Of a stretch of DNA of 42,387 bases, positions 30,732-42,387 are shown piece by piece. A program made the position numbers and the translations under genes. The notes below the pieces were generated by a model that was not told where the DNA came from, did no database searches, and saw only the letters and a list, made by a program, of their open reading frames with translations. Source of the stretch: Deltaproteobacteria bacterium (GTDB taxonomy: Bacteria > Desulfobacterota > JADFXK01); NCBI GenBank assembly GCA_015233625.1, contig JADFXK010000001.1, positions 9,537-51,923 on the forward strand. The letters run 5' to 3'. Each line of letters starts with the position of its first letter. Position 1 is the first letter of the stretch.

Positions 30732-31152
30732 CTTTCCTTTCAGAGTCCTGGTCGACACAAGTTTCTGGATCGCCCTTTATGACACCAAAGATCGGTGGCA
30801 TAGCCAAGCGGTTGACCGGGAGGGAGTTTTGACTATATCAAATGTCATCCTGCCCTGGCCGATCCTCTACGAGACGTTGCGGACAAGGTTTGTCAAGAAC
30901 AGGCCATGGGGAATACACTTTCGGCTGCTCCTGGGTACTCTCCATGTATCCCATGTCTGCGATACGCCTTACCGGCAACGCGCCTTTGATGACACGGTGA
31001 CCGATTCCAACGTCCGTCGAGGTATCAGCATGATTGACATGTTGATCAGGCTGATGCTGCAAGATAAGAATCTGGGGATAACTCACCTGCTGACATTCAA
31101 CGTGAAAGATTTTGAAGATGTTTGTCGTGAGAGACGGATCGAACTGGTGTAG
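30712..31152 (+). CDS. PIN-domain-like protein
   Basis: VLVDTSFWIALYD, PILYETL, SMIDMLIRLML, LLTFNVKDFEDVC match the acidic pattern of PIN domains; ATGAAGATGACAG start chosen over the longer ORF from 30634. Confidence 0.7.
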   Translation: MKMTAISFPFRVLVDTSFWIALYDTKDRWHSQAVDREGVLTISNVILPWPILYETLRTRFVKNRPWGIHFRLLLGTLHVSHVCDTPYRQRAFDDTVTDSNVRRGISMIDMLIRLMLQDKNLGITHLLTFNVKDFEDVCRERRIELV

Positions 31153-31201
31153 CCGCCCCAAAGCAAGAGCTAAAGCTGACGATTGACCAAAGGAAGACTA
31201 A

Positions 31202-31687
31202 TTGACTGAATCTTTAAAAAAATACTTAATCCTGATATACGTCGCTGTGCCTGTCCTTATTTTGGATCAGGTGACCAAGGCGATCATTCTTCGGAAGTTG
31301 ACCTTGCACCAGAGCCTGGAGGTGATTCCGGGTTTCTTCAATATTTGCTATGTCCGGAACAAGGGTGCGGCCTTCGGCGTTCTGAATAATCTTTCACCAT
31401 CTTTAACCCGCTATTTATTTATCGCCGTCGGGATCTTGGCCGTGGTGGTCATCGCCTATCTGGTCAATCAAATCAAAGAGGACGGCCGAGGGATGGTGAT
31501 CGCCTTGGGATTGGTCCTGGGCGGGGCGGTGGGCAATAATCTAATCGATCGGGTCAGATGGGGGGAAGTCATCGATTTCCTAGACGTCTACGTCAAGTCC
31601 TATCACTGGCCGGTATTTAATGTCGCTGACTCCGCCATTAGCGTCGGGGCAATTCTTTTGGCCTATCAGATCATCAGGAGGATTTAA
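31202..31687 (+). CDS. lspA: Lipoprotein signal peptidase II
   Basis: 161 aa; LDQVTKAIIL, NKGAAFG, NLIDRVRWGEVIDFLDVY, FNVADSAISVG. Confidence 0.96.
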   Translation: MTESLKKYLILIYVAVPVLILDQVTKAIILRKLTLHQSLEVIPGFFNICYVRNKGAAFGVLNNLSPSLTRYLFIAVGILAVVVIAYLVNQIKEDGRGMVIALGLVLGGAVGNNLIDRVRWGEVIDFLDVYVKSYHWPVFNVADSAISVGAILLAYQIIRRI

Positions 31688-31689
31688 TC

Positions 31690-32475
31690 ATGTTCCCGAC
31701 CATTGTCCGGCTGGGTCCTTTGGCCATCCACACTTACGGTGTTCTTATCGCCACGGCTTTTCTGGCCGGCGTGGGCCTGGCCATGCGGGAAGCCCGGCGG
31801 TTGGGCCAGGACCCGACCAAGGTCATGGACCTGTCTCTATATATCGTCATCTCCGCCATTGTTGGTTCCCGCTTACTCTATGTCCTGCTTAAATTTGATT
31901 ACTATATCAAAAAGCCCCTAAATATCTTTATGATTTGGGAAGGCGGGCTGGTCTTTTACGGTGGTTTGATAGGTGCCTTGATCGTGGGTCTGTGGTACAT
32001 GCGGCGGCATGGGCTGAATATGTGGCAGACCTGCGATATCTTTGCTCCGTCTCTGCCGCTGGGCCAGGCCATTGGCCGGCTGGGTTGTTTTTCGGCGGGA
32101 TGTTGCTATGGCAGCCCCACCAACCTCCCCTGGGCCGTGACCTTCACCAATCCCGAGACCTTGGCCTCACCCCTGGGCGTGCCGATCCATCCCACCCAGT
32201 TGTATTCTTCGGCCATTGGTTTGGTGATTTTCCTCATTCTAATGATCATGCGGAAACACAAAAAGTTCGACGGCCAGTTGATCTGGGTCTATGTCGTCTT
32301 GTCGGGAATAGGACGTTTCTTCGACGAATTCTGCCGGGCTGATTTCCGCGGTCCGGAAGTCTTCGGCGTCATTTCCACCACCCAGGCGATCAGCATTGTC
32401 AGCGTCATAGTCGGCGTGGTCATGCTCATCATCTTAGGCAAGAAGCACCAGTTGGCACCTAGGCCCAACCCGTGA
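31690..32475 (+). CDS. lgt: Prolipoprotein diacylglyceryl transferase
   Basis: 261 aa; IWEGGLVFYGGLIGA, GRLGCFSAGCCYG, PIHPTQLYSS. Confidence 0.97.
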   Translation: MFPTIVRLGPLAIHTYGVLIATAFLAGVGLAMREARRLGQDPTKVMDLSLYIVISAIVGSRLLYVLLKFDYYIKKPLNIFMIWEGGLVFYGGLIGALIVGLWYMRRHGLNMWQTCDIFAPSLPLGQAIGRLGCFSAGCCYGSPTNLPWAVTFTNPETLASPLGVPIHPTQLYSSAIGLVIFLILMIMRKHKKFDGQLIWVYVVLSGIGRFFDEFCRADFRGPEVFGVISTTQAISIVSVIVGVVMLIILGKKHQLAPRPNP

Positions 32476-32501
32476 AACTAACCACCTAAGCAAAAAACAC
32501 G

Positions 32502-32546
32502 ACGCAGAGGTTTTCAGAGTTTCTCGAAGACCTCTGCGTTTTTTTA
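32502..32546 (+). terminator. Rho-independent terminator downstream of lspA-lgt
   Basis: ACGCAGAGGT...ACCTCTGCGT stem followed by T-run. Confidence 0.8.
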
Positions 32547-32600
32547 TCCAGAAGACTCTGTGATGCCGTGTTCCAGTCCGGTACAGCACCTCGTTGGCCG

Positions 32601-33347
32601 TTATCTCCGCATCCCCCGAAGCGTTTCTTCGCTGTAGCCCCACCCCTTGCACGACGGGACGTCGATGAGAATGAAATCAGCATCTTTGTAAGCTTCAAAA
32701 TTCAAGGGTGCCTCGGTATCGATTCGGGCCTGCCCGCCTTCCTCAACCTGCCGGCCATTGATGGCTAACATCCCCTTGGTCAGGTAGACGAAGATCCGAC
32801 GCCCGCGGGTGGCCTCGAAGGACAGCTCCTGGTCCTTATCCAGGTCGGCCCGGTAAATAGTCGCGTCTGCGTGTAACGTAACGGTATCCGGAATGCCCCG
32901 CCCGGAAGCCACCGGGAAAAGTGTGTTCATCCATAACACTGGCGCATATGTTTTTTGGTCATAGGTTGGCTGAAGTCCGGATTTGTCCGGGAAGATCCAG
33001 ATTTGATAGAAATGGACTGGATTATCGGCCAGATTGAATTCGGAATGGGTTAGCCCGGTCCCGGCTGACATACGTTGGACATCATTGGCCTGGATGACCG
33101 CCTGGTTGCCCATGCTGTCCTCATGCGTGATTTCGCCCTGGAGGACGATAGTGACGATCTCCATTTCCTGGTGGGGATGAGTCGGGAAGCCGGTTCCCGG
33201 GGCCACCACATCATCATTAAACACCCGCAAAGCGCCAAACTGGATGTTGTGCGGATCGAAATAGTTGGCGAATGAAAACAACCAGTAGGTCTTCAGCCAG
33301 CCGAAGTTGCTGAAATGGCGCTCCTCTTTCCTGATGATCTGAATCAT
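32601..33347 (-). CDS. Pirin-family protein
   Basis: MIQIIRKEERHFSNFGWLKTYWLFSFANYFDPHNIQFGALRVFNDDVVAPGTGFPTHPHQEMEIVTIVLQGEITHEDSMGN cupin core; supplied ORF start (33452) probably over-extended. Confidence 0.92.
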   Translation of the reverse strand: MIQIIRKEERHFSNFGWLKTYWLFSFANYFDPHNIQFGALRVFNDDVVAPGTGFPTHPHQEMEIVTIVLQGEITHEDSMGNQAVIQANDVQRMSAGTGLTHSEFNLADNPVHFYQIWIFPDKSGLQPTYDQKTYAPVLWMNTLFPVASGRGIPDTVTLHADATIYRADLDKDQELSFEATRGRRIFVYLTKGMLAINGRQVEEGGQARIDTEAPLNFEAYKDADFILIDVPSCKGWGYSEETLRGMRR

Positions 33348-33357
33348 ATCTCTCCTC

Positions 33358-35199
33358 CTACAAGGCGCAGGGGCAACCGGCCGACCAGAAACGCCCGTCT
33401 GAACCCATGATGACCAGATGGGCATGATTGCCGTCGGGATGCAGGTACCCACAATCGCCGTGCGTGTGCTTGGGCGGGGCGGAGTTGGAATTGTCGTAGC
33501 CTCCGTATCGGGCCACGGGAGACCAGTCCGGGCTGACCGGCGGCATCGGCGGGGCTAGTTCGGAGAACTCTGCTGCGGCATACACGGGTTTTCCGCCTAA
33601 TATGGTCAGGACGCTCTCAATGCCGCGGATCTCATCTTCCTCGACAGCGAAATAATCCGCATTCAAGACGGCCAGGTCAGCCAGATAGCCACTCACCAGC
33701 CGGCCTTTGCGATGGTCATCCCGGCTGAACCAGGCGCTGCCGGAGGTGTACAGCCTCAAAGCTTCCTCGCGACTGAGTCGGGACTTCTTATCGCCGGTAA
33801 GGAGGGTCCCGCCCACGCCCTTGCCAGACACCAGCCACCACAGACAGGTCCAGGGATGATACGAGGCCACCCGAGTTCCGTCTGTTCCGGCCCCGACCGG
33901 CAGGCCCAGTTCCATCATTTTCCGGATTGGCGGTTTGGCCTCCACGGCGGCTCGTCCGTAGCGCCGGATGAAGTATTCCCCCTGGTAGGCCATCCGATGC
34001 TGCACGGCGATGCCTCCGCCCAGGTTCAGGATGCGTTCCATGTTTTGCGGGGTAATCGTTTCGGCGTGGTCGATGAACCAGCGCAGATCATCGATGGGCG
34101 TGTCCCGGTGCACCCTCTCGAATAGATCCAGAAAACGGCCGATGGATTCATTGTAAGTGGCATGGATCCGCCAGGGCCATCGGGCTTCCGCCAGTTTCCG
34201 GATCACCTGTTCCAGTTCGATGTCCATAACCGGCCGGAGTTCGGGGCGAGGCTGCAAAAAATTCTCGAAATCGGCCGCACTCCACACCAGATTCTCGCCG
34301 GCCCCGTTGACCCGGAGCAGGTCGTCGCCGTCACCGGGATGGGTCAGGCCCAGCCACCGGGTGTAATCCTCCGCTTCGGTCCCGGATTTCTGGGCGAACA
34401 GGCTGTAGGCGATCCGGACAGTCAGGTCCCCCGCGTTGGCCAGTTGGCGGATGACCGCATAGTCTTCCGGGTAGTTCTGACCGCCCCCACCCGCATCTGA
34501 GGCGCTGGTGATGCCGAACCGGTTTAGTTCCCTCATGAAATGGCGCGTGGAATTCAACTGGTCCGGGAAGTTCAACTTGGGGGCGGTGGCGATGGCCGAA
34601 TAGAGGATCAGGGCATTGGGTTCGGCGATGAGCAGACCGGTGGGTTGGCCGCGGGCGTCCCGGGCGATCACGCCGCCTGGGGGATTGGGAGTGGTTTCAT
34701 CAAAGCTCAGGGCCCGTAATGCGGCCCGGTTAAGCAGGGCGCAATCGTACAGGTGCAGGACAAAAACGGGAGTGTCCGGAGCGGCCGCGTTGATCTCTTC
34801 CAGGGTCGGCATCCGGCCTTCGGCAAACTGCAGTTCACTCCAGCCGCCGATAACCCGGACCCACTGGGGCGGCGGAGTCCGCTGGGCCTGTTCCTGGAGC
34901 CGACGCATGGCCTCGGCGATCCGGGGCACGCCATCCCACCGCAGTTCCAGGTTGTAAAACAGCCCGGCCCGGATGACGTGCAGGTGGGAGTCGTTGAGCC
35001 CGGGGATCACCCGGCGGCGTCGAAGGTCAATCTGCCGGGTCCCGGCATCACCCAGAGCCAGGATGGTCCGATCATCACCCCCGGCCGTGACCAGTCCGTC
35101 TTTAACGGCCAGGGCGGTGACTTCCGGCTGCCGCGGATCATTGGTGGTGATCCGGCCGTTGTACAGAATCAATTCCGGGGCCGGGTTGGGGCCGGTCAT
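33358..35199 (-). CDS. YtcJ-like metal-dependent amidohydrolase
   Basis: 613 aa; VIPGLNDSHLHVIRAG, FIDHAETI, VGAGTDGTRVASYHPW, GYLADLAVLNADYF. Confidence 0.9.
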   Translation of the reverse strand: MTGPNPAPELILYNGRITTNDPRQPEVTALAVKDGLVTAGGDDRTILALGDAGTRQIDLRRRRVIPGLNDSHLHVIRAGLFYNLELRWDGVPRIAEAMRRLQEQAQRTPPPQWVRVIGGWSELQFAEGRMPTLEEINAAAPDTPVFVLHLYDCALLNRAALRALSFDETTPNPPGGVIARDARGQPTGLLIAEPNALILYSAIATAPKLNFPDQLNSTRHFMRELNRFGITSASDAGGGGQNYPEDYAVIRQLANAGDLTVRIAYSLFAQKSGTEAEDYTRWLGLTHPGDGDDLLRVNGAGENLVWSAADFENFLQPRPELRPVMDIELEQVIRKLAEARWPWRIHATYNESIGRFLDLFERVHRDTPIDDLRWFIDHAETITPQNMERILNLGGGIAVQHRMAYQGEYFIRRYGRAAVEAKPPIRKMMELGLPVGAGTDGTRVASYHPWTCLWWLVSGKGVGGTLLTGDKKSRLSREEALRLYTSGSAWFSRDDHRKGRLVSGYLADLAVLNADYFAVEEDEIRGIESVLTILGGKPVYAAAEFSELAPPMPPVSPDWSPVARYGGYDNSNSAPPKHTHGDCGYLHPDGNHAHLVIMGSDGRFWSAGCPCAL

Positions 35200-35284
35200 A
35201 TCGTTCTCTCCCTTTCTGATTTCCTCATCCGGTTTGCGTTCGGCGAGTTCGCTGGGCGATCAGGCAACTGCGGTTAGCAAACCA

Positions 35285-35488
35285 AGACTTTATCCGCAGA
35301 TTACTCAGATTTTCGCAGATTAAGAAAATGCAAAATGATAGTGTCAGAAGGCTTGCATCCAGGCCGCGGTCGGCCAAAGTTCAGCAAATGATCGCAAAGT
35401 CTGTAGTCTCTTTAATCTGCGTTCATCTGCGTAATCTGCGGATACATTTTTTATTTCCCGATTTATAGGGCCCGTCAACCTTAGGTTT
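35285..35488 (+). repeat. Dispersed repeat copy 3
   Basis: GACTTTATCCGCAGATTACTCAGA...GGCTTGCATCCAGGCCGCGGTCGGCCAAAGTTCAG...TTTAATCTGCGTTCATCTGCGTAATCTGCGGATAC. Confidence 0.85.
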
Positions 35489-36174: not shown

Positions 36175-36254
36175 GGGACTTCCTCCTTTATCCGTTGTGT
36201 TATCCAACATCAAAACTCTTCTGTGTCGCAATCGACAGCCCCGCCGCAGCCGAG

Positions 36255-36460
36255 GACCATGATTTAATCCGCAGATTGCGCCGATTGGCGCAGATTAAAA
36301 GCAATGCAAAACGCTTGTGCCCGAAGGCTTGCATCCAGGCCTCGGTCGGCCAAAGTTCAGAAAATGATCGCCTGGTCTGTGGTCTCTTTAATCTGCGTTC
36401 ATCTGCGTAATCTGCGGATACCTTTTTGGCCCCCAAATTACCAGACTCGTCGAACTCAGG
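36255..36460 (+). repeat. Dispersed repeat copy 4
   Basis: GACCATGATTTAATCCGCAGATTGCGCC...GGCTTGCATCCAGGCCTCGGTCGGCCAAAGTTCAG...TTTAATCTGCGTTCATCTGCGTAATCTGCGGATAC...ACTCGTCGAACTCAGG. Confidence 0.85.
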
Positions 36461-36647
36461 TTATTCATAGGAAATCAGGTTGCGGCAGGCAGGAAGGGAT
36501 GCCCTCGACCAAACGCGGCTCAAATTCCAAGCATGATATGAGCATTCACTCGGTTTGTAAATAGGGCGGGGGATTCATTTCTCTGGTGATTTTCCCGATT
36601 GGGCATGGATTTTTCCCGGTGGGGTTCATATGGGGGGATGGGTTCGA

Positions 36648-37364
36648 CTAGATGCTGCTCTCTCGTGGTTTAAGAATCATCTTCACTTCGACAACTCGCT
36701 GCTCTCGCGTGGATTGTCCAACAATGCGTACTCGCTGTTCCTCAGTAAACATTTCCAGGACCGTATCAAATTGCTCGACCGGAAAGCTACATTGTCGTTC
36801 TGGTTCACCAATAATCTCTCTCAAAGTAAATGTATATTTATCGCGATCAAGCTCTCTGATGATTCCTTCTTTATCAAATAGGGAAAATTCATCATCCGCT
36901 GAGGTGACTTGTTTTATAATCTCCCCTGGTATATTCTCTTCTTTTATCTGTTGGCCTGTGGCCTTAATCGGCAGTACCGGTTCCAGGTGCGGATAAAGCA
37001 GCACGTCTGCCTCTGGAAGTGCGTCTTCCGGTAAATCTTTTATTTGAATCTGCCAAGACTTCCTGACGCCCCAGTCGGTAGTCGTAATATCAACGAGCCA
37101 CATTATAGGTTGGTCTAATGCCTCCCGAATGGAAATAGTCCCTAACTTCAATTTGTCCACTATTGATGGGCGAGTCGGAGCCACCACGTATCGCAGTATA
37201 TCATCCTGATCATCGCTCAAGTAGGCGATAGCCAAACCGTTCAACGGAGTTTTAAAAGTAAAAATCAACGGTTCGTTGTATTCATACAGCATTTCTTCCG
37301 GAGGAAATAAGTTTCCGATGAGTTCCACCGGGTATTCAGGAGCGCTTACATCCCAAAGAGCCAT
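36648..37364 (-). CDS. Hypothetical protein (second gene of a two-gene operon)
   Basis: 238 aa ORF starting 2 bp after the upstream minus-strand ORF ends. Confidence 0.65.
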   Translation of the reverse strand: MALWDVSAPEYPVELIGNLFPPEEMLYEYNEPLIFTFKTPLNGLAIAYLSDDQDDILRYVVAPTRPSIVDKLKLGTISIREALDQPIMWLVDITTTDWGVRKSWQIQIKDLPEDALPEADVLLYPHLEPVLPIKATGQQIKEENIPGEIIKQVTSADDEFSLFDKEGIIRELDRDKYTFTLREIIGEPERQCSFPVEQFDTVLEMFTEEQRVRIVGQSTREQRVVEVKMILKPRESSI

Positions 37365-37366
37365 GG

Positions 37367-37747
37367 TTATCCCCTGAATATTTCTTGAAAAGTTAAATGG
37401 CTATATTTCCAAAAAGTGGCATGACTCGGTACAGGTCCCTCGGTCATTTTAATCTTACCATGCTCCGGCTTGAGGTCAGCCACAATTATATACCTTTTTC
37501 TACGTGGAAACAACCGGCGTATTTCCACCGCATCTTCGACTGTCGTAGATACAGATAATCCACATCGTTGACACAGGTCCTGTCCCGGTTTGACTGGAAC
37601 ATTCATTTCGTGGAAAGTCTCAATATCGTGCTCACCGGGAGGATTTTCCTTTGAATGCCCATAAGCCGTAATATTTGCATCAACAGCGTCAGCCGGAGGA
37701 CAATTGGCCGGCCAGTCGTCTGGAAATCGCAATTCATCTTCTGGCAT
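37367..37747 (-). CDS. Hypothetical protein (first gene of a two-gene operon)
   Basis: 126 aa; CQRCGL motif; tightly coupled to 36648..37364. Confidence 0.65.
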   Translation of the reverse strand: MPEDELRFPDDWPANCPPADAVDANITAYGHSKENPPGEHDIETFHEMNVPVKPGQDLCQRCGLSVSTTVEDAVEIRRLFPRRKRYIIVADLKPEHGKIKMTEGPVPSHATFWKYSHLTFQEIFRG

Positions 37748-38095
37748 TCGGTTCTCTCCGGTTCGTTTTCACATTATCCTCGTAAAAAATTGATTGATTT
37801 CCTTACGCTATATTTTTTTGAAAGTCAAGAAAGCAGTCGGCCGCCGGTCCCACGACCGGGAGACGAAGTTGCGTGGACCATGCCAGCCGAGCATCTTCTA
37901 GCACCTTGTGATCTTGGCGTTGAGCGAAAAGCCCGCTTCGATAAGCGAAAGGCACCGGCCTTGAACCATGCCTTCAAGGAATGATTCAGGAAAATGTCCA
38001 AGGTAATCTGTCAACGGAGGCTCATTTTGAACGAAACATTGAGCCACGTCGCACATAGTCGCGCAAGAAGCTGAACGGCCGTTCGCTGCGTCGGG

Positions 38096-38560
38096 TTAAG
38101 TCCTTTGATGCGCGTAATGTTTCATTGCCCCTCTGGCTAGCATGCCAACAAGCAAGCATACTACTATGGACCATATAGCTTCTGCAAATATTAAAATGGG
38201 GTATTCAAAGAAATCCTGAGGAGTTATTAAGAAAAAAGTAATTTTCCGAAAAGATTCTCCCCCGATAGCAAATAAAAGCAAGTGGGCGATGACTCTTGCC
38301 TTGGCCGTGCAAGCAATGAGTGCTGCTGGTATTCCAAATGAGATTGACCTAAACAAAAAATGATAAAATAGAACCCGAGGATGGATTACGATTTCATACT
38401 CTCGGGCAACTCTAAAACTATCTTGAATTCCAGTCACGTTTCGAAATTCCACTACGACCGACCAGAATATGGTGTTTTCAGCCGCCGCCAATAATAAGGA
38501 AGCAAGCAAGAACACTATCAATGCTATCAGTAAGCAGTCTATGTTTATTTTTTTCATCAC
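38096..38560 (-). CDS. Hypothetical integral membrane protein
   Basis: 154 aa with several hydrophobic segments. Confidence 0.6.
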   Translation of the reverse strand: MMKKINIDCLLIALIVFLLASLLLAAAENTIFWSVVVEFRNVTGIQDSFRVAREYEIVIHPRVLFYHFLFRSISFGIPAALIACTAKARVIAHLLLFAIGGESFRKITFFLITPQDFFEYPILIFAEAIWSIVVCLLVGMLARGAMKHYAHQRT

Positions 38561-38570
38561 ATATCACGAG

Positions 38571-38648
38571 CTTCACCAATCCGGAGACCCTGGCCTCACT
38601 ACTGGGCGTGCCGATCCATCCCACTCAATTATATTCTTTGACGATTGA
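38571..38648 (+). pseudogene. Fragment of an lgt-like gene
   Basis: cttcaccaatccggagaccctggcctcactactgggcgtgccgatccatcccactcaattatattctt aligns with 32142..32219 within lgt (about 10 mismatches over ~78 nt by eye). Confidence 0.8.
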
Positions 38649-38720
38649 CTTATATGTTTGATAAGGTAGTTTTTGGCATGCCTTAATTTGAAGAGACCCA
38701 CACTTGGAATTTTGCATAAG

Positions 38721-38793
38721 GCTCGGACGCAAATAGCTCAGGGGATGGCAAGAAGTGCAGCTTTTTGCCATCCCCTGGAACGCAATGTTAGAT
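38721..38793 (-). other. Palindromic attC-like element (degenerate at one end)
   Basis: ATCTAAC box next to the stop codon of 38796..39785, then CAGGGGATGGCAA/TTGCCATCCCCTG perfect 13-bp stem. Confidence 0.3.
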
Positions 38794-38795
38794 AT

Positions 38796-39785
38796 CTATT
38801 TAGTGCGTACCAGTTTGAGTTTCCCATCTGATCCCGCTACTCGGGTAGGAATAACTGATCTATCGAGATCACCTTTTATAGTTTCAAAGAGATCGCGTGC
38901 AAATAGCTTATTGCCAATATGCCAGGAGTGATCGAAAGAGCCTAAGACATTCGTTTGGTCTGCCTTTTTGATCTCTTCATTTGAATCAAGTACCCTGAAG
39001 TAATCTGTGCAATCGATATTTACACCCTTTGTCGGAGCGTCGGCGGGCAATCCTACACGCCCAACTCGTGGTGCCAGACCTAGGCGCTTTGCATTGGATA
39101 GCTTCAACACCGAGTCACACAAGTTTGAGTAGTTCGTCAACCTGGTACAGTGCCTATACAAAGAATCTGTTGAGCTATTTCCATTAGTTAAAGAGGAAGA
39201 GGAGATATCGCCACCAATGAACGCAACCTGGCTGACAGTCCATGAGTTATTTGGTAGACGGGCGTCGTCGGCGTCGTCAAAGGCCTCTCGGATTACGTAT
39301 GCACCGGTTGAATGGCCGAGCAAATGGATATTGATGGTGCAATCCGGAGCTTGTCGAGCTGATAGTGCCAAAATTCCATCGGACACAAGTTGCATAGCCG
39401 TTTTCTTCGCATCGTGTCTGTCTTCCAGGTAGTTGATAGCCCAGTCATCGCTTGGCCAGTCGAATGACAAAATTTCACCTTTAAAACCTACGGAAGTCAA
39501 ATCACTCTTGAGCTGTGCATGGCGATCCATCACGGTTTTCTGGTTGTTGTTGTACCCATGCACAAATACGAGCAAATCACCTCGATCTCGCCCGCCGTTA
39601 CGAGAATCTTTGCCCCACGTTGCAGCCGTGCGTAGTTTCTTAAACCATTGATTAGTGTTCTTCACTGCCTGCTTTGGTGATGGAAGGTCGCCTTCCGGAA
39701 CAATCAAGAATAAGGATGGTCCGGGTTCGGCTATAAAGACACCACCTTCCACGGCACGGGCGCACATGACAAATTGGTCAGCCAT
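38796..39785 (-). CDS. Alpha/beta hydrolase (DUF900-like)
   Basis: 329 aa; LLVFVHGYNNNQ, ILSFDWPSDD, INIHLLGHSTGAYVIREAF (GHSTG nucleophile elbow). Confidence 0.85.
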   Translation of the reverse strand: MADQFVMCARAVEGGVFIAEPGPSLFLIVPEGDLPSPKQAVKNTNQWFKKLRTAATWGKDSRNGGRDRGDLLVFVHGYNNNQKTVMDRHAQLKSDLTSVGFKGEILSFDWPSDDWAINYLEDRHDAKKTAMQLVSDGILALSARQAPDCTINIHLLGHSTGAYVIREAFDDADDARLPNNSWTVSQVAFIGGDISSSSLTNGNSSTDSLYRHCTRLTNYSNLCDSVLKLSNAKRLGLAPRVGRVGLPADAPTKGVNIDCTDYFRVLDSNEEIKKADQTNVLGSFDHSWHIGNKLFARDLFETIKGDLDRSVIPTRVAGSDGKLKLVRTK

Positions 39786-39807
39786 TCTATTCTCCTATAG
39801 TGGTAAA

Positions 39808-39907
39808 GCCTAACGCCCGCCACCAGCCACTGCCGGAAGCCGAACCGACGCAGGAGCATAGGCTGTTCCCAGTCGGCTGCAAACCCTTGTCGGCTAGGAC
39901 GTTAGAA
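39808..39907 (-). other. Candidate integron attC site
   Basis: Minus strand TTCTAAC-GTCCTAGCCGAC...GTGGCTGGTGGCGGGC-GTTAGGC; R' GTTAGGC fits GTTRRRY; AACGTCC pairs with GGGCGTT; located between two cassette-like ORFs, next ATG ~28 nt after R'. Confidence 0.5.
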
Positions 39908-39952
39908 CAGACATTGGCAAGGTCTAAGGTGAGTTTGCCTCCTGGGTTGGTA

Positions 39953-40846
39953 TTATGACTGCGCTGAATTCTTTACTCCCTTGATTGTATCAAGTCCTCG
40001 CTTGATGGCATCTTCGGTGACCGGGCTGGCGATACCATCAGCAACAATGCCCACAGCAGCTTGAAAGTTCTTCACGGCCTGGCGCGTGGCTGGGCCATAG
40101 CGACCGTCAACGACGAGTTTAGGCACTGCCCCAAGGTCGTTGAGGGCTTTCTGAAGCCTCTCCACATTGTCGTCTTCGACGCTGGTTTGCCAAGGCTCCG
40201 CATCGGCGTTCAGCAACGGCCACACCATGTTGAACCATGCTTCCCGTTCGTCGAGTCCTGTCAAGCCACCGTTGATGCGCTTGGTGATGGTGATGATATC
40301 GTTCTTGTCCGCAAATGTGTTAAGGTTGTTTTCAGTCCACTCACCTACGGCTGGCTTCAAGGCGTGTGCAGGGTAAGTCACCAAATCGGGGTTGCCTACG
40401 AAATTAACTCCACAGAGGGTACCCATGTGCTGGTGGTTTCGTCGTCCAGTGGTTTGGAACATCCCGTTACCACGATAGAGAAATCCATCGCCTCGCTGTG
40501 TATTGCCGAGATCGTGCGCCTTGGACGGGTTGCCGAGGCCATAAACCCTCTCGGCGATGTCTTCCGGGTGGTGGGCGAGTGTCTCTGCCTCATCAGCCGT
40601 CACCGCAGCGCTATGATGGGCGCCAAATATCTTGAGGAGTCGCTGTGCAGAGTAGTTCATATTCTCGCGCAGGATCGTGAAGCCACCCGTCTCGTGCAAG
40701 GCCTGAGCCAGGAAATGCGTCATGCGCAGCGGTGTCGTGATCCTGTGTTCCTTAAACAGTGAGTCGCCTTGGCGGATTGCCTCAAGGTAATTGTCGAGCG
40801 CGTTGGTAGCCGTACGTCTGACCACGTTGATAGTATTGATCGTCAT
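39953..40846 (-). CDS. GH19-like chitinase/endolysin with C-terminal peptidoglycan-binding domain
   Basis: From MTINTINVVRR with GGAGGT RBS; MTHFLAQALHETGGF, YRGNGMFQTTGRRNHQ, ITKRINGG, and LQKALNDLGAVPKLVVDGRYGPATRQAVKNFQ PG-binding motif. Confidence 0.88.
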   Translation of the reverse strand: MTINTINVVRRTATNALDNYLEAIRQGDSLFKEHRITTPLRMTHFLAQALHETGGFTILRENMNYSAQRLLKIFGAHHSAAVTADEAETLAHHPEDIAERVYGLGNPSKAHDLGNTQRGDGFLYRGNGMFQTTGRRNHQHMGTLCGVNFVGNPDLVTYPAHALKPAVGEWTENNLNTFADKNDIITITKRINGGLTGLDEREAWFNMVWPLLNADAEPWQTSVEDDNVERLQKALNDLGAVPKLVVDGRYGPATRQAVKNFQAAVGIVADGIASPVTEDAIKRGLDTIKGVKNSAQS

Positions 40847-41020
40847 GAAATCTACCTCCATTTTTGTCTGTGTTCGGTTGGAGAAGAAATCTGGACACCC
40901 CCGCGAAGTCGAACGTCGCGGGTAACTCCTTAACGACCATGGGCATGGGCTTGCAATAAAGGACTCCGAATACGCCCTATGGTTGCTCAACGGGTTAACT
41001 CGCTGTCAGGTCATTATGTT

Positions 41021-42016
41021 CTATACCCAAACAGGTGGCTTCCCGACCGGCGGTGCAAGATCGATGTTATAGAGTTCCTTAAGAAGTCTTGTCCAGATTT
41101 CTCTACCATCATCGGCAGGGGCACAATGAAAGCAGTATTTTGTCTTTAAGTACTTGGGAACACCTTTCTCGAAATCCTGTTCTCTGATGATAGCCAGATA
41201 TTTGTTGTTGCCAGCCGGAAGATTCAACAGATCACCTTGAATAATCATCGTCTCCCATCCAACTCCGCCCGAGCGGCCGTCAGCCTTCGCAGCATATTGT
41301 GCATCTGAGACAATTACCACTCTGTCGGCCATTGCCAATTCGTTCGTCATCCATTGGGGCAGATCCATACCCTCGCGCAAGTGCCATTGGTCGAGACGTG
41401 CTTCGATGCCGTTGTCCCTTAGGTATGTCGCAAGCCCTGCCACCCAGCCCTTCTGCTCTTGGGTTGCACCAGTGTAGCTTATGAATACCCGAATCGGTTC
41501 TTTGACCTGTGGCTGCGGGACCAGGCCGGGGCCCGATGGTTTGACGTAGTTACTGAGGCGACGAAAAACATTCTCATGCAAGATGCTGATGGTTAGGATT
41601 GCATCCGGATGCGCTTTACTTTTAAAGCCCTCTGCAATTGCGTCAACCACATGCTCACTTCGGAGCCCGCCCGCACCTGCACCTAGGAGTGGAGCCGATA
41701 CAGCTCTGACTGATGAGTAATCTTGTGTGGCCGAGCCAAGCCGCGTTCCTATCAACCGAATAGCTGCGGTGGTAGAATGCATATTTATTACAGAGGCCGC
41801 AAATGCGACGTATTGAGCGATGTTCTCGCCACCTGTGAAGGGCATAATATCTACCTGGCCCAGCTCATATGCCCTTTTTGGGTCCGGTATCCTGTACTCT
41901 TGAAGTGCTGTAGCAACAAAACTCGTTATCGTCCCGCCCGTTGAGCAGGGCAATACAACTAAATCGGATGGCCCGTCAAATATGTTACCAAGTCGCAACT
42001 TAACAAGAGCAGCCAT
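41021..42016 (-). CDS. Macro-domain + TIR/SEFIR-domain fusion protein
   Basis: From MAALVKLRLGN with AAGGAGG RBS; N-terminal macro-like segment (DLVVLPCSTGG...APLLGAGAGGLRSEHVVDAIAEGF); C-terminal IRVFISYTGATQEQKGWVAGLATYLRDNGIEARLDQWHLREGMDLPQWM...GGVGWETMII typical of SEFIR/TIR. Confidence 0.82.
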   Translation of the reverse strand: MAALVKLRLGNIFDGPSDLVVLPCSTGGTITSFVATALQEYRIPDPKRAYELGQVDIMPFTGGENIAQYVAFAASVINMHSTTAAIRLIGTRLGSATQDYSSVRAVSAPLLGAGAGGLRSEHVVDAIAEGFKSKAHPDAILTISILHENVFRRLSNYVKPSGPGLVPQPQVKEPIRVFISYTGATQEQKGWVAGLATYLRDNGIEARLDQWHLREGMDLPQWMTNELAMADRVVIVSDAQYAAKADGRSGGVGWETMIIQGDLLNLPAGNNKYLAIIREQDFEKGVPKYLKTKYCFHCAPADDGREIWTRLLKELYNIDLAPPVGKPPVWV

Positions 42017-42387
42017 TGTTGAAATCCTCCTTACACATGACTTAGTCTCTACACGTTCTGGAGTCGTAACGTTCGACATGAACGGATTACACCGGCTTGG
42101 CCGTAGCGGTCGTTCGATGGCCCGATTTGGCAGTTCCGCTTACAGGTGCACCGGCCAATTTGTGTTGCCAACCTTTAGGAATCAGGTTGAGGCGGCTTCC
42201 AATTTCAGCAATGAAGTCTGTGAATGTGCGGCTTATCTGGTGAATGCCGTATTGAGTGTGATATACTACTCCAACTTAGGTTGTGACAGGCACGATTATT
42301 GCTTGCAAGCTGTGTTATAGACAAAAACAATATCTCATATATCCTCTAAAAGCCATAGTCCGTTTCGGACTTTCAACTTATTGCTTT

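Follow-up and report, generated by a model that had tools for sequence, protein, structure and literature searches.

bSEFIR, reported by Millman et al. in 2022, is said to be a single-gene antiphage system, and the SAVED-TIR and TIR-STING effectors of CBASS fuse a nucleotide-binding input domain to a NADase of the TIR superfamily. For SEFIR systems, NAD+ depletion and an abortive phenotype have been described (PMC12322248, PMC12926258). Type II Thoeris divides its labor between a TIR protein, ThsB, and a TM-macro protein, ThsA; the macro domains of ThsA bind ADPR/IAD and oligomerise (PMC11204291), and the TM-macro ThsA of type II systems is activated by His-ADPR (PMC12847820). In the open-access papers searched, we found no account of a protein that joins a macro domain to a SEFIR domain, and the one review among them that names both mentions the macro domain only in the title of a reference; an earlier description elsewhere is possible.

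The DNA analysed here (hereafter the window, 42,387 nucleotides) carries a gene with precisely this arrangement near one end. The elements to which we refer below, with the evidence for each, are the following:

41021..42016, minus strand: macro-SEFIR gene (P0001, 331 aa); open reading frame and AAGGAGG ribosome-binding site
41543..42016, minus strand: N-terminal macro domain, residues 1-158; profile against the PDB, AF2, Foldseek
41495..41542, minus strand: linker, residues 159-174; low model confidence, not conserved
41063..41494, minus strand: C-terminal SEFIR/TIR domain, residues 175-318; Pfam, PADLOC, PDB profile, Foldseek
41252..41254, minus strand: codon of Glu255, candidate NADase glutamate; invariant in 21/21 sequences, aligned with the TIR_2 alpha-C Glu
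41663..41692, minus strand: macro phosphate-binding loop PLLGAGAGGL, residues 109-118; aligned to PLLGTGVGGL of TTHA0132
41942..41953, minus strand: LPCS motif, residues 22-25, where MacroD-type domains have their NAAN loop; alignment
36643..42387, no strand assigned: variable stretch with the macro-SEFIR gene; absent at the syntenic position in another genome of the genus

The gene starts with an ATG at 42016 and stops at 41021-41023, and a ribosome-binding site, AAGGAGG, lies at 42032-42026, nine bases 5' of the start codon; the corresponding frame of the plus strand is interrupted by many stops. An earlier note made on this DNA had placed the gene at the same coordinates, to which we add that it is read from the minus strand. 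The motifs quoted in that note are all present in the protein (LVVLPCSTGGT at residues 19-29, APLLGAGAGGL at 108-118 and GVGWETM at 251-257), as is the proline-rich linker, KPSGPGLVPQPQVKEP, at residues 159-174.

To collect relatives, the search alignment was built from P0001 and five artificial variants, made so that the two suspected motifs alone stayed conserved, and the sole pattern used by the search was PLLG[AT]GAGG; the variants were kept out of the folding and of all later inference. This pattern search returned 31 loci, which were confirmed by tblastn against the real P0001, while a plain search of genome contigs with exact 8-residue patterns of P0001, which were too strict, gave no match. 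Twenty-one real full-length or near-full-length sequences, the window protein included, were aligned, and the window protein is homologous over its full length to the 20 others at 35-59% identity. The search for the same two-domain architecture that the earlier note had proposed was thus productive, and the two-domain composition of the protein is virtually certain. Because PLLG[AT]GAGG was the search pattern, the invariance of the phosphate loop arises in part by selection; Pro23, Cys24, Gly28, Gly53 and all residues of the SEFIR half lie outside the pattern and are therefore unselected, and one homologue found by a profile search without the pattern (L068) carries the loop PLLGTGYGGL. The proline-rich composition of the linker is not conserved in the relatives. 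Three homologues (L036, L037 and L038) are frame-shifted, L036 just past GGVGW, and represent either assembly errors or inactivated copies.

The C-terminal half belongs unambiguously, as judged by its sequence, predicted fold and alpha-C glutamate, to the SEFIR/TIR (STIR) superfamily. In Pfam it matches both TIR_2 (9.9e-13) and SEFIR (1.9e-12) above the curated cut-offs, and in PADLOC residues 171-330 match bSEFIR at 2.2e-50. The solved bacterial SEFIR structure 5y8e is found in the PDB with the single sequence (1.5e-20) and more strongly with the 21-member profile (6.6e-36), which also matches human Act1/TRAF3IP2 in its SEFIR domain (5.6e-6) and the NADase AbTIR (1.5e-4), and the second half of the AF2 model retrieves 5y8e in Foldseek with a TM-score of 0.74. 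Glu255 is invariant in 21/21 aligned sequences, as are the residues of the SEFIR core; in the AF2 model it comes second in the helix 254-265, where TIR NADases have their alpha-C glutamate, and in a profile alignment to the TIR_2 domain of another macro fusion (L039) it falls on the alpha-C Glu of that domain. The SEFIR/TIR module with a conserved glutamate that had been claimed for this protein is therefore borne out. Since the SEFIR domains of eukaryotes serve as adaptors and not as NADases, the fold alone is insufficient proof of NADase activity, and we regard NAD+ cleavage by the window protein as likely. Elsewhere the SEFIR domain is joined to unrelated partner regions; a SEFIR protein present on many E. 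coli plasmids (L014:2569-3477), for example, has a different, unassigned N-terminal region of ~140 aa.

The N-terminal half is harder to recognise. As a single sequence it has no significant macro match in Pfam or NCBIfam, missing the gathering cut-off of Pfam Macro PF01661, and its PDB matches are weak (2dx6, E 0.058; DarG 5m31, E 0.39), two of the three being macro domains; two weak matches from within the phylum are likewise plain macro domains, and a related fusion protein (L042) has a sub-threshold match to Pfam Macro (0.0048). The 21-member profile, on the other hand, matches the macro domains of TTHA0132 (2dx6, 1.1e-7), Getah virus (alphavirus) nsP3 (9.3e-6) and DarG (2.3e-4). AF2 gave a pLDDT of 38 from the single sequence; with the 21 sequences the mean pLDDT rose to 84.2 (pTM 0.77), with ~90 for the macro domain and an unsure linker at residues 161-169. 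In Foldseek the first half of this model finds TTHA0132 (2dx6) with an E value of 1.8e-8 and a TM-score of 0.77 on the target, together with DarG, nsP3 and PARP14. A macro superfamily fold in residues 1-158 is thus firmly predicted from profile and model, and the reading of the missing Pfam match as an N-terminus without a macro domain is rejected. In the model the domain begins at residue 4, and no membrane segment precedes it. The earlier note, which had named structure prediction as the test of this fold, had let the macro segment run to about residue 180; the fold was found, and its end lies near residue 158.

The residues of the macro half also bear on what it may do. Its phosphate loop aligns to that of TTHA0132, while VNAAN of TTHA0132 aligns to VLPCS of the window protein; Pro23 and Cys24 are invariant in 21/21 sequences, and position 25, which corresponds to the ribose-binding Asn, is S, N, D or A. 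By alignment, the NAAN catalytic loop by which MacroD-type ADP-ribosyl hydrolases are defined is absent. As the MacroD-type loop is missing and the phosphate loop is kept, we infer that the macro half favours ligand binding over MacroD-type hydrolysis. One of the Foldseek matches, 6r0r, is an alphavirus macro domain with ADPR on a cysteine; we do not assert that this residue is equivalent to Cys24. Conservation in the main clade is 50-62% for the macro domain and 45-61% for the SEFIR domain, whereas in the Bacillota/Ferrigenium clade conservation of the macro domain is far lower, at 25-29%.

Set beside the described systems, the protein is neither a Thoeris ThsA nor a canonical bSEFIR. With bSEFIR (PADLOC PDLC03957) it shares a strong SEFIR match, an apparent single-gene organization and a likely depletion of NAD+, but it covers only positions 35-197 of the 412 in the profile, and carries its SEFIR domain at the C-terminus with a macro domain instead of the remainder. 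With type II Thoeris it has in common a macro domain and an enzyme of the TIR superfamily, as well as G[DN][IL]F and PL[LVI]G[SAT]G-like stretches found in both macro domains, and a type II pair lies a few kb from one homologue (L072); it differs in that both domains occupy one chain devoid of a transmembrane segment, and no separate adjacent ThsB TIR gene is present beside it in the visible window. Membership in ThsA was considered and rejected, as P0001 has no match to ThsA_Macro PF20016 and only a weak match to the ThsA profile (Prob 64%). The predicted logic of a nucleotide-binding input coupled to a TIR-superfamily NADase is shared with SAVED-TIR and TIR-STING, yet the PADLOC match to SAVED_TIR (0.0017) concerns the TIR part only, the input is a macro domain rather than SAVED or STING, and no CD-NTase gene stands beside it in the window. 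The macro domains of DarG and of the TTHA0132 type have the same fold and phosphate loop; the window protein differs from them in lacking the MacroD-type NAAN loop, in its fusion to SEFIR and in the lack of an adjoining DarT toxin gene. Finally, it resembles SpbK and other stand-alone TIR NADases in being, by prediction, a single-protein NADase of the TIR superfamily with an N-terminal sensing part (PMC12847820), but has SEFIR rather than TIR and a macro domain at its N-terminus. Of the window protein, PADLOC recognised the SEFIR half alone, and it contains no dedicated fusion model that matches.

Full-length homologues are spread over at least eight phyla (Planctomycetota, Cyanobacteriota, Pseudomonadota, Acidobacteriota, Chloroflexota, Verrucomicrobiota, Zixibacteria and Bacillota), at ~1 per 150-400 genomes sampled per group; Bradyrhizobium tropiciagri and Collimonas silvisoli are among the carriers. 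The gene was detected in 1/396 genomes of the window's own phylum, with both same-genus genomes negative, in 1/149 Bradyrhizobium genomes, in 1/289 genomes of the class of Bradyrhizobium (where a second match is a DarG-like macro protein), in 2/296 genomes of the phylum of Schlesneria (the planctomycete set) and in 1/288 of the class of an Oscillospiraceae bin; because these sets were centred on known carriers, the true rates are lower. The tree mixes phyla, with well-supported pairs of a planctomycete and Cyanothece, Hyphomicrobiales and Schlesneria, and Bradyrhizobium and Planctomycetaceae. Horizontal transfer is the simplest reading of this tree, whose rows are mostly metagenome bins in which binning errors are possible. 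At one locus (L034:4599-8269), two identical, inverted copies of a 1242-nt IS110-family element enclose 1187 nt with only the macro-SEFIR gene inside, and a second inverted pair of 81 nt lies outside them. Searched by tblastn against plasmids, the macro half gave no match, and the matches of the full-length query on plasmids and phages are SEFIR-only. Taken together, macro-SEFIR is very probably an accessory or mobile gene.

A scan of 109 neighbours of the homologues gave scattered defence matches, and most neighbourhoods consist of ordinary genes rather than defence islands. One defence context, in a genome of the planctomycete set (L072:4005-11877), holds within ~6 kb ThsA_Macro (4e-45, a TM-macro ThsA) and ThsB_TIR (4e-15), i.e., type II Thoeris, together with SIR2_2 (3e-11), macro-SEFIR and FRG (2.7e-8), a cluster of NAD-related genes. 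Elsewhere, a XamI-type restriction enzyme and its methylase follow just after the gene (L016), a TIR gene lies directly upstream (L027), or DUF4062 and Schlafen-AlbA genes stand upstream and an SbcC-like gene downstream (L036). We take this context as supportive of a role in defence and not as proof. The accessory, mobile distribution and, for some genomes, the defence neighbours agree with the interpretation in the earlier note; the window itself lies outside any recognised island.

By analogy with the activation of ThsA by His-ADPR and with the depletion of NAD+ by SEFIR systems, nucleotide-gated clustering of SEFIR NADase domains would be the most likely mechanism. At rest the SEFIR domain would be inactive. 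Upon infection, a nucleotide derived from NAD+ (ADPR or one of its conjugates, e.g., His-ADPR), supplied by another enzyme or released during infection, would bind in the macro cleft; the ligand-bound macro domains would dimerise or oligomerise and gather the SEFIR domains, as in TIR assemblies, and a composite active site around Glu255 would then cleave NAD+ and starve both phage and cell. ADPR set free by this cleavage could in turn occupy the macro domain in cis and so amplify the response. We give this reading, in which the protein is a one-gene abortive-infection antiphage effector whose SEFIR domains assemble and cleave NAD+ when an ADPR-type ligand occupies the macro domain, a probability of roughly 50%. 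Its parts differ in strength: an antiphage role is quite probable as a prediction, whereas for the macro domain as a nucleotide-gated trigger, which we infer, the odds are about even. That the gene sits alone between two IS110 elements in L034 suggests that it suffices by itself, and the occurrence of relatives across phyla suggests a portable, one-protein antiphage device for alarm and killing. Against the model, the Asp of ThsA that contacts adenine is N, D or S in the macro-SEFIR family, conservation does not extend to the Asn with which ThsA holds the distal ribose, and no obligate signal-producing partner gene adjoins the window gene or most of its homologues.

That last observation is also what speaks for a different trigger, in which the macro domain would recognise ADP-ribosylated macromolecules (e.g., targets of phage ADP-ribosyltransferases, whether nucleic acid or proteins of host or phage) or would contact a phage protein itself, and would thereby cluster the SEFIR NADase; the protein would still act in defence. 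The nearest solved folds do include macro domains that bind or process such adducts (DarG, nsP3 and PARP14), but the macro domains of the main clade are about as conserved as their SEFIR domains or more so, unlike a fast-evolving surface that tracks phage proteins, an argument limited by the much lower conservation in the Bacillota/Ferrigenium clade, and we consider a protein or adduct trigger rather unlikely. The fusion in cis also invites the idea, offered in the earlier note, that the protein limits itself, the SEFIR domain making an ADPR-type product that the macro domain hydrolyses or sequesters to set a threshold or switch the response off, and for macro domains coupled to TIR systems a regulatory action through cADPR has been predicted (PMC9503650). 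This version is weakened, and to our minds improbable, as the same macro subfamily is found on KAP NTPases and LRR-Roc proteins, which make no NADase product that could be limited, and the NAAN loop is replaced by PC[SNDA].

It is less probable again that the SEFIR domain makes a messenger which acts on another effector encoded elsewhere in the genome, with the macro domain as a feedback sensor: TIR proteins of Thoeris act in this manner (PMC11204291) and TIR or Thoeris genes occur near a few homologues, but no effector gene is conserved beside macro-SEFIR and the L034 copy travels alone. Nor do we favor a function outside defence, as a regulator of stress or NAD metabolism or as a catalytically dead SEFIR adaptor; many homologues do reside among ordinary genes, but the very patchy distribution across phyla, the mobile context in L034, the invariant Glu255 and the defence island around L072 render it highly improbable. 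Overall, the interpretation put forward in the earlier note is partly supported, with NADase activity, ligand binding and phage defence standing as predictions.

The macro subfamily marked by the PCS-type motif is not confined to SEFIR proteins. It is fused to TIR_2 in L039, stands nearly alone in L040, and is joined to KAP NTPases in actinobacteria (L042, L043 and L044) and to LRR-Roc in a Bacteroidetes bin (L045); the fusions in L042-L045 may be separate, undescribed systems. Because the macro module pairs with several outputs, as an input domain would be expected to, it looks, from these architectures, like a swappable input rather than a brake specific to SEFIR. A wider version, which we put forward tentatively and consider doubtful, is that the PCS-type macro domain might be a receptor of general use, exchangeable between proteins, for an immune messenger derived from ADPR, the possible counterpart for NAD-derived signals of SAVED and STING for cyclic nucleotides. 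In unrelated bacteria it might then be plugged into SEFIR and TIR NADases, KAP membrane NTPases and LRR-Roc GTPases, and macro-SEFIR could be its simplest, one-gene, self-amplifying form.

If the preferred reading of macro-SEFIR as a nucleotide-gated effector is true, NAD+ cleavage and the sensing of NAD-derived nucleotides, which type II Thoeris splits, coexist on one soluble chain of 331 residues, and the protein would be a small object on which to test the gating of TIR-superfamily enzymes by ADPR-type messengers; with it, the question of what triggers bacterial SEFIR proteins could be put to a direct test. An input shared by unrelated effectors would, in turn, suggest that further immune proteins gated by NAD signals escape motif and profile libraries, since in the window protein Pfam misses the macro domain.

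The surroundings of the window gene are those of a variable stretch at a contig end, not of a recognised defence island. The source genome, a bin of 619 contigs, is only 68% complete, and the window ends with its contig (base 51923), leaving 371 bases visible upstream of the gene. In a same-genus genome (G002), contig C47 matches the window at 30808-33532 and 36486-36642 and continues with unrelated genes. The neighbours of macro-SEFIR in the window are an endolysin-type gene with GH19-like and peptidoglycan-binding parts, a DUF900 hydrolase gene and small unassigned genes; Pfam and PADLOC scans of these neighbours, in the visible sequence to the contig end at 42387, revealed no TIR gene. The endolysin-like protein (39953-40846, minus strand), a GH19 chitinase-like part followed by PG_binding_1, sits between macro-SEFIR and the DUF900 alpha/beta hydrolase gene at 38796-39785. 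A 238-aa protein (36648-37364, minus strand) matches the defence protein PD-T4-10_B weakly in PADLOC (3.2e-6), and an unassigned 126-aa protein is encoded directly upstream of it (37367-37747) in an operon-like arrangement. Near the edge of the variable stretch lies a dispersed repeat of ~100-210 bp (e.g., 36253-36465 and 35281-35451), which occurs in at least four places in the window and in dozens of copies in two same-genus genomes.
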